Positions 18,182 through 19,602 of a DNA stretch of 64,000 nucleotides are shown piece after piece (position 1 is the stretch's first letter; every line of letters starts with the position of its first letter). The DNA lies in the NCBI RefSeq assembly GCF_026409565.1, contig NZ_CP112881.1, forward strand, positions 2,859,501 through 2,923,500. The letters run 5' to 3'. The notes under the pieces are model-generated. The model worked only from the letters and a program-made list of their open reading frames with translations. It had not been told where the DNA came from and ran no database searches. The position numbers were made by a program, and so were the translations under genes. Origin of the DNA: Sneathiella aquimaris (GTDB lineage Bacteria > Pseudomonadota > Alphaproteobacteria > Sneathiellales > Sneathiellaceae).

Positions 18182-18306
18182 GCGCTTATATTAACCGGTT
18201 TTAGAAAAAAAATACACAAAATGGGGAACTGACGTCATTCTAGCCCTTTTCAAAAATACCTAGTCGGTCTAAAGAACAGAAACGTTATCAAATGAGGTCT
18301 GAAGAG

Positions 18307-18798
18307 ATGTCCGAAGAAGCTGATTATACAAAATATTTCCCCGTCTCGTGGGAAGAGTTGCATCGCAATGGTCGAGCATTGGCATGGCGGTTGATGGAAT
18401 TGGCACCATTTAAAGGGATCGTTGCGGTTACACGGGGCGGTCTGGTGCCTGCTGCGATTGTCGCCCGGGAACTCGACGTTCGCAATATTGAAACTGTTTG
18501 TATCGCGGCTTATCGCGACGATAAAACAGTAGGCGAAGTGAATATTATCAAAGGGCTGGACATTCCAGACAATGGAAAAGGTTGGTTGATTGTCGACGAC
18601 CTCGTCGATAGCGGGATTACGGCTAAATATGTCAGAGACATGATCCCGGAAGCTCATTTCGCAACCATATATGCCAAGCCGAAAGGCCGCCAGCGCGTTG
18701 ATACATTTATAACAGAAGTCAGTCAGGATACCTGGATCCTGTTTCCCTGGGATCAAGCGCCGTCTTTTGCAAAACCGATTGTAGAAGAAACCCGCTAA
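18307..18798 (+). CDS. gpt: Xanthine phosphoribosyltransferase
   Basis: This 163-residue purine salvage enzyme transfers phosphoribose from PRPP to xanthine or guanine. The type I PRTase PRPP-binding loop is [17 protein letters not shown]. The flexible-loop region and [18 protein letters not shown] match E. coli Gpt, as does the length. I chose the ATG at 18307 with GAGG 9 bases upstream; an in-frame ATG at 18292 would add five residues. It sits 21 bases before hyi and shares its direction, so the two may be co-transcribed. Confidence 0.92.
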
Positions 18799-18819
18799 CG
18801 TTTCATCAGGAGACATCTC

Positions 18820-19602
18820 ATTCCGCACTTTGCCGCAAATTTGAGTTTCTTGTTTCAGGATGTTCCATTTCTGGATCGGTTTTCTCATGCTGCAAATGCG
18901 GGATTTAAAGGGGTTGAGTATTTATTCCCGTATGATTGGCCAGCTGATACACTGAAAGAGGAACTGGATCGCCTCCAATTGACGCAAGTACTTTTCAATC
19001 TATCGCCCGGTGACTGGTCCGCAGGTGATAGAGGTCTTGCGGCCCTTCCCGCGCGGCAAAGCGAATATCAGGCCTCTGTCGAACAGGCTTATCGTTATGC
19101 TTCGGCACTAAATTGCCAAAAATTGCATGTCATGTCCGGGCTTAGAGATACCACGCTCTCTCAAAGTCAACAACTCGATTACTTTCAACAATCCCTTGAG
19201 AAGGCAATTTCCTTTGCCCCCTCTCAGACCCTCACATTCCTGATCGAGCCCATTAACAACCATGACATTCCGGGCTATTTACTAAACGACTTTGATTTGG
19301 GATTAAGGCTGGTGAAAGAGCTCGACACTCCAAGAATTCGGCTTCAGTTTGACATGTATCATTGCCAGAGAATTCATGGCGATGTGAGCCGCCGTCTTGC
19401 GGAAGCCCTTCCCTATGTCCAGCACATTCAAATTGCCAACACACCCGGCAGAACCGACCCTGATATCGGAGAGTTAAACTATCCCTACCTTTTTGATATG
19501 CTCGACAGGGAAGGCTATGTCGGTTGGGTTGGCTGTGAGTACAAACCGATCCAGCGGTTCGACGCTCAACCGTTTCGATGGATGAGCCCGTATCTTGAAT
19601 AA
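18820..19602 (+). CDS. hyi: Hydroxypyruvate isomerase, apparent ATT start codon
   Basis: This is a TIM-barrel enzyme of about 260 residues that interconverts hydroxypyruvate and tartronate semialdehyde. Family motifs include LSFLFQDVPFLDRFSHAANA, FLIEPINNHDIPGYL (metal-binding Glu) and VGCEYKP near the C-terminus. No ATG, GTG or TTG stands at the expected start. The codon there is ATT at 18820, read as M-PHFAANLSF, matching the usual Hyi N-terminus, with AGGAG 7 bases upstream. TTG 18841 would cut into the first beta strand and lacks a Shine-Dalgarno. Either a rare AUU start or a point change is implied. Confidence 0.88.
   Translation: MPHFAANLSFLFQDVPFLDRFSHAANAGFKGVEYLFPYDWPADTLKEELDRLQLTQVLFNLSPGDWSAGDRGLAALPARQSEYQASVEQAYRYASALNCQKLHVMSGLRDTTLSQSQQLDYFQQSLEKAISFAPSQTLTFLIEPINNHDIPGYLLNDFDLGLRLVKELDTPRIRLQFDMYHCQRIHGDVSRRLAEALPYVQHIQIANTPGRTDPDIGELNYPYLFDMLDREGYVGWVGCEYKPIQRFDAQPFRWMSPYLE

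Follow-up and report, generated by a model that had tools for sequence, protein, structure and literature searches.

AUU pairs with the initiator anticodon at two of three bases and is disfavoured by initiation factor IF3, a bias that a good Shine-Dalgarno site partly offsets. Starts of this kind seldom come to notice, since gene finders look for ATG, GTG, or TTG. One source names infC and pcnB as the sole AUU-initiated genes of Escherichia coli (PMC9410913). The odd start of infC is described as conserved and autoregulatory (PMC5472188), and pcnB is a chromosomal gene other than infC whose expression is limited by its AUU (PMC9410913, PMC1780047). Four AUH starts have been reported in Staphylococcus aureus; for the three AUU/AUA starts tested with reporters, output in poor medium was about 10% of that from AUG, and the AUA start of ccpN reached up to 30% in rich medium (PMC13009471). 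The reporter-tested starts include that of citZ, a metabolic gene with a lineage-specific AUA, while cvfC1 (AUU) and ccpN (AUA) were also tested by ribosome profiling (PMC13009471). Further examples are the GTC start of Streptomyces sigR, which is repressed by IF3 (PMC5472188), and lepA of Borrelia burgdorferi and Bacillus licheniformis, for which AUU was proposed from homology, the full-length protein needing it (PMC1780047).

Here we describe an isomerase gene of Sneathiella aquimaris, located in a window of 64,000 nucleotides (the whole stretch of DNA analysed), that is likely translated from an AUU codon at position 18820 following a lineage-specific change of ATG to ATT. Among the described systems it resembles citZ most, both being metabolic genes with an AUH start in one lineage. 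The citZ, cvfC1, and ccpN starts were tested with reporters and the AUU of pcnB was experimentally demonstrated, whereas the AUU of the isomerase is proposed from sequence. With pcnB it would share an AUU start outside infC, and with E. coli infC an AUH codon behind a Shine-Dalgarno site; however, the start of infC is conserved and autoregulatory, while the ATT described here is found in one lineage and belongs to a metabolic enzyme. The infC, cvfC1, and ccpN genes of S. aureus, a member of a different phylum, are reported to have extended Shine-Dalgarno motifs, whereas the isomerase gene has the 5-nt core only. Streptomyces sigR also carries an odd start outside infC, but it encodes a regulator and its odd start, GTC, is conserved. 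The AUU of lepA, another gene and in other phyla, was proposed from homology alone and, like that of the isomerase, is a candidate start. AUU starts are thus known (infC, pcnB, and S. aureus cvfC1, with AUA in ccpN and citZ), and what is new here is the isomerase gene; no paper on an AUU start of hydroxypyruvate isomerase was found among the open papers searched.

Placement of the start codon

The hyi/otnI-like gene (a xylose-isomerase-like TIM barrel of 260 aa) occupies positions 18820..19602 of the plus strand, from ATT 18820 to a TAA stop. It lies downstream of gpt, the xanthine phosphoribosyltransferase gene (18292..18798, plus strand), whose TAA stop (18796-18798) is in frame with the isomerase gene and 21 nt before the ATT. 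The gpt stop is followed by CGT TTC ATC AGG AGA CAT CTC ATT CCG CAC TTT GCC GCA AAT TTG. Inspection of this sequence found no in-frame ATG, GTG, or TTG between the gpt stop and TTG 18841 (18841..18843, plus strand), the nearest standard start, in agreement with a sequence-only reading of this DNA that had reported no standard codon at the family start and whose coordinates are correct. Three in-frame codons before TTG 18841 are one base from ATG (ATC 18805, AGG 18808, and ATT 18820), and the ATT (18820..18822, plus strand) is preferred because it alone combines the start position of the family with an upstream Shine-Dalgarno site. That site, AGGAG at 18808..18812 of the plus strand, lies 7 nt before the ATT (spacer ACATCTC), just where the same reading had placed it, and its predicted duplex energy of -7.4 kcal/mol ranks third of the 22 genus loci. 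As other candidates, ATC 18805 has no Shine-Dalgarno site (duplex 0.0 kcal/mol), AGG 18808 falls inside the Shine-Dalgarno word and was set aside by inspection, and CTC 18817, two bases from ATG, was likewise set aside by inspection. The solved structures closest in sequence are 3ngf and 1k77 (E. coli YgbM), and both bear out the proposal that the ATT stands where Met is expected; residue 1 of the query aligns with Met1 of 1k77 and with chain residue 9, an M, of 3ngf, without an N-terminal gap.

The stretch upstream of TTG 18841 looks like protein. Among 103 relatives, A6 and N7 are invariant (103/103), position 4 is always F or L (103/103), and P2, kept in the window gene, is P in 73/103; this conservation suggests that codons 2-8 are coding. 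L8 is found in 100/103. In the predicted structure (mean pLDDT 93.2), built with 43 of the fetched or window proteins in the alignment, residues 3-7 form strand beta-1. The Shine-Dalgarno duplex weakens from -7.4 kcal/mol for ATT 18820 to +1.4 kcal/mol for TTG 18841. The invariant residues, beta-1, and the duplex energies together argue for a start upstream of TTG 18841. Although that TTG is the first standard start, and although gpt and hyi share one frame, translation from TTG 18841 or as a gpt-hyi read-through product is very improbable. The TTG has no Shine-Dalgarno site, and starting there would delete residues 1-7, including invariant A6 and N7 and, as had been claimed, the first strand of the barrel; read-through would require suppression of the gpt TAA, and nothing was seen in its favour.

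The bare motif means nothing by itself, since AGGAG-N7-ATT occurs at chance frequency in the window (2 observed vs 2.05 expected). Genes called by a purpose-written script contain 3,948 ATT codons in frame in their interior, and 51 of these (1.3%) have a 5-nt Shine-Dalgarno word 5-9 nt upstream. The exact AGGAG-N7 arrangement was seen before six interior codons out of 122,868, and in no case was the codon ATT. At an ATT fixed by homology, the chance of a 5-nt Shine-Dalgarno word in that range is about 1%; the AGGAG here, at 7 nt, is properly spaced. RNA folding at the start is ordinary (z 0.29, with 113 of 200 shuffles folding at least as well), and the predicted minimum-energy form pairs the AGGAG. 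Translational coupling to gpt is possible; the 21-nt gap is the longest of the 22 genus loci (the others range from -1 to 15 nt), so coupling is not favoured relative to congeners.

Positions 18250-18888 of the window also contain a 212-codon open reading frame on the minus strand, overlapping gpt and the 5' end of hyi in antisense. It has no Pfam match and is probably spurious.

A putative start codon seen in one genome

To compare starts, 110 loci were gathered, comprising the best 30 matches of 60 genomes, among them that of the window itself, together with the 80 best of 93 from a second collection. Removal of L091, in which the match begins at residue 31, and of five duplicates left 104 distinct loci. 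Standard starts were counted within codons -8 to +3, with ATG taken first where several occur. By this count 103 of the 104 loci have a standard start (95 ATG, 5 GTG, and 3 TTG), the sole exception being the window gene. Within Sneathiella, orthologues were identified in 21 of the 23 other genomes, with none in G004 and only a weak match in G006, both of which are incomplete. All 21 start at ATG, GTG, or TTG, which leaves the window gene as the one member of the 22 in the genus with ATT. The orthologue alignment that had been suggested as a check, run here with congeners, finds the ATT not conserved, and a non-standard start shared among relatives, as in infC and sigR, is not seen. The sequence-only reading had offered either tight translational control or a recent point mutation. 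A change from ATG to ATT fits better, and with none of the 21 congeners starting at ATT, IF3 control maintained by selection is not supported. The ATT was seen once, in one assembly, and the closest orthologue found is about 55% identical, in collections that hold one genome per species and the second of which may omit records very near the window's genome.

A codon present in one assembly only, against standard starts at 103 other distinct loci, is also what a base-call or assembly error would produce if the true genome had ATG or another standard start at 18820. We consider this unlikely. The assembly is one contig and 100% complete by the tool's figure, the site is not in a homopolymer, and few of the residual errors in finished genomes fall in a start codon. 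Eight of ten nearby frames match Pfam without an evident break and two match none, which has little bearing on single bases.

For translation from AUU 18820, the history and mechanism that we infer are as follows. The third base of an ATG would have changed in this lineage to give ATT, a parsimonious single-base history. Guided by AGGAG 7 nt upstream, fMet-tRNA would initiate at the AUU, perhaps assisted by ribosomes terminating on gpt 21 nt upstream, and initiation would be sensitive to IF3. Behind a good Shine-Dalgarno site, an AUU would yield a limited amount of protein, perhaps about one tenth of what an AUG would give. By analogy with the described AUH starts, the change from ATG to ATT probably lowers isomerase expression.

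Identity and metabolic setting

The gene product matches the Pfam xylose-isomerase-like TIM barrel (PF01261) at 128.5 bits, against a gathering score of 31.1. Its score for the NCBIfam 2-oxo-tetronate isomerase OtnI (NF043033) is 324.8 bits, which misses the cut-off of 325 by 0.2 bits, and its score for the NCBIfam hydroxypyruvate isomerase (TIGR03234) is 291.6 bits, below the cut-off of 353.45. Since both are under their cut-offs, the name hyi is loose and uncertain. The gene is single-copy in a genome of one contig (3.94 Mb).

Glyoxylate carboligase (gcl) exceeds its cut-off in none of the 24 genus genomes, several of which are incomplete. Of the same 24 genomes, 5 have the OtnK-type kinase domain (SBD_N); the genome studied here is not among them. 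With neither gcl nor an OtnK-type kinase domain found here, the pathway partners of the isomerase are not evident.

The gpt gene adjoins the isomerase gene in all 22 genus loci. We know of no pathway linking the two.

Divergence of the isomerase

In a tree whose tool is unsure in placing long rows such as that of the window hyi (0.70), the isomerase groups with its Sneathiella counterparts in a clade of 22 rows (support 100/95). On this placement, and on adjacency to gpt in 22/22 genus loci, acquisition from outside the genus was rejected. The end branch of the window hyi (0.70 changes/site) is the longest in the genus, the next being 0.55, although the window hyi also lacks a sister row. In leave-one-out sets of genus-invariant columns, the window hyi keeps 55/61, more being lost than in any congener, whereas none of the other 21 retains fewer than 61/64. 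Where gpt identity is 86-90%, identity of the window hyi averages 51.3% (6 pairs) vs 62.7% among congeners (24 pairs). This faster divergence would also fit relaxed selection; weaker constraint, or quicker change in a gene of low expression, may underlie it.

The long branch, the lost columns, the low identity, and pathway partners that are not evident would be consistent with a gene freshly inactivated, in which the change from ATG to ATT ended translation too recently for the open frame to have decayed. However, this explanation is quite unlikely. The window hyi frame has no stop or frameshift, its Shine-Dalgarno site is intact and good, and the conserved E143, D178, Q204, and E240, which we take to be the metal-binding residues, are retained. 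The OtnK-type kinase domain is also absent in 18 of the 23 other genus genomes, yet all 21 orthologues found have a standard start. Retention of 46 of the 49 columns conserved in 95% of relatives, together with the unbroken frame, indicates that the protein was under selection along most of its branch. We propose that the frame has remained open owing to the residual protein that an AUU behind a good Shine-Dalgarno site would still yield.

The codon-usage score of hyi (0.048 per codon) is below that of 97.6% of 335 called genes, which were themselves chosen for high score. Poor codon usage was rejected as evidence that the gene is weakly expressed or decaying; the ATG-started orthologues L017 (0.039) and L020 (0.048) score as low, so the codon-usage score says nothing about the ATT. 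A coding-potential screen for other non-standard starts in the window and 400 kb (363 genes called) has low power over few codons and gave no rate, and hyi itself scored under its calling threshold (12.4 vs 15).

Probable AUA starts of infC and possible IF3 control

Genes for IF3 (infC) were found in 23 of the 24 genus genomes (L111-L131, L132, and L133). All 23 begin with ATA preceded by AGGAG, and the stretch from the preceding stop to the ATA contains no standard start. In the genome studied here, infC (L132) lies on the minus strand at about 3595900-3596200 of the contig and has the arrangement AGGAG-AAAGTAA-ATA, with the same core and spacing as hyi. The conservation of this codon, and the use of such starts in other bacteria, suggest that the genus reads AUH starts elsewhere, namely the AUA of infC. 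Among the best 30 of 143 class matches by score, which are not a random draw, 18 infC loci appear to have ATA behind a Shine-Dalgarno-like word. No paper on an infC AUA start codon in Alphaproteobacteria was found among the open papers searched.

From the known behaviour of AUH codons, the isomerase start may be expected to be sensitive to IF3. The shared Shine-Dalgarno layout of the genus infC genes, and the repression by IF3 of an odd start outside infC that is described for sigR (PMC5472188), would be compatible with an AUU kept by selection as a control point, at which the IF3 level sets isomerase output as in infC or Streptomyces sigR. This is highly improbable, given that ATT stands at the start of one orthologue out of 22 in the genus. 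To our knowledge, there is no functional link between this isomerase and translation. It is very unlikely, too, that the isomerase is a second IF3-sensitive gene here besides the AUA-initiated infC, with output following free IF3 and an AUU that may be kept for low dosage. Translation from an AUU left by a lineage-specific base change is the reading we prefer.

The N-terminal domain of IF3 in this genome scores 77.6 bits, the lowest Pfam score of the 143 matched class genomes; two congeners in that sample score 88-89 bits and most others more than 100. The congener G007 scores below it, at 76.7 bits, in the search of the genus. Start discrimination by the IF3 of this genome might differ.

Conclusions

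An AUU start in the isomerase gene changes no general idea. Standard start prediction would call this isomerase seven residues short, or broken, and in Sneathiella it would overlook IF3 or truncate it. The gene is a clean test case, in that homology places the start to within one or two codons and the alternative deletes a strand of the barrel. The infC gene of the same genome provides a natural AUH comparison with equal Shine-Dalgarno spacing.
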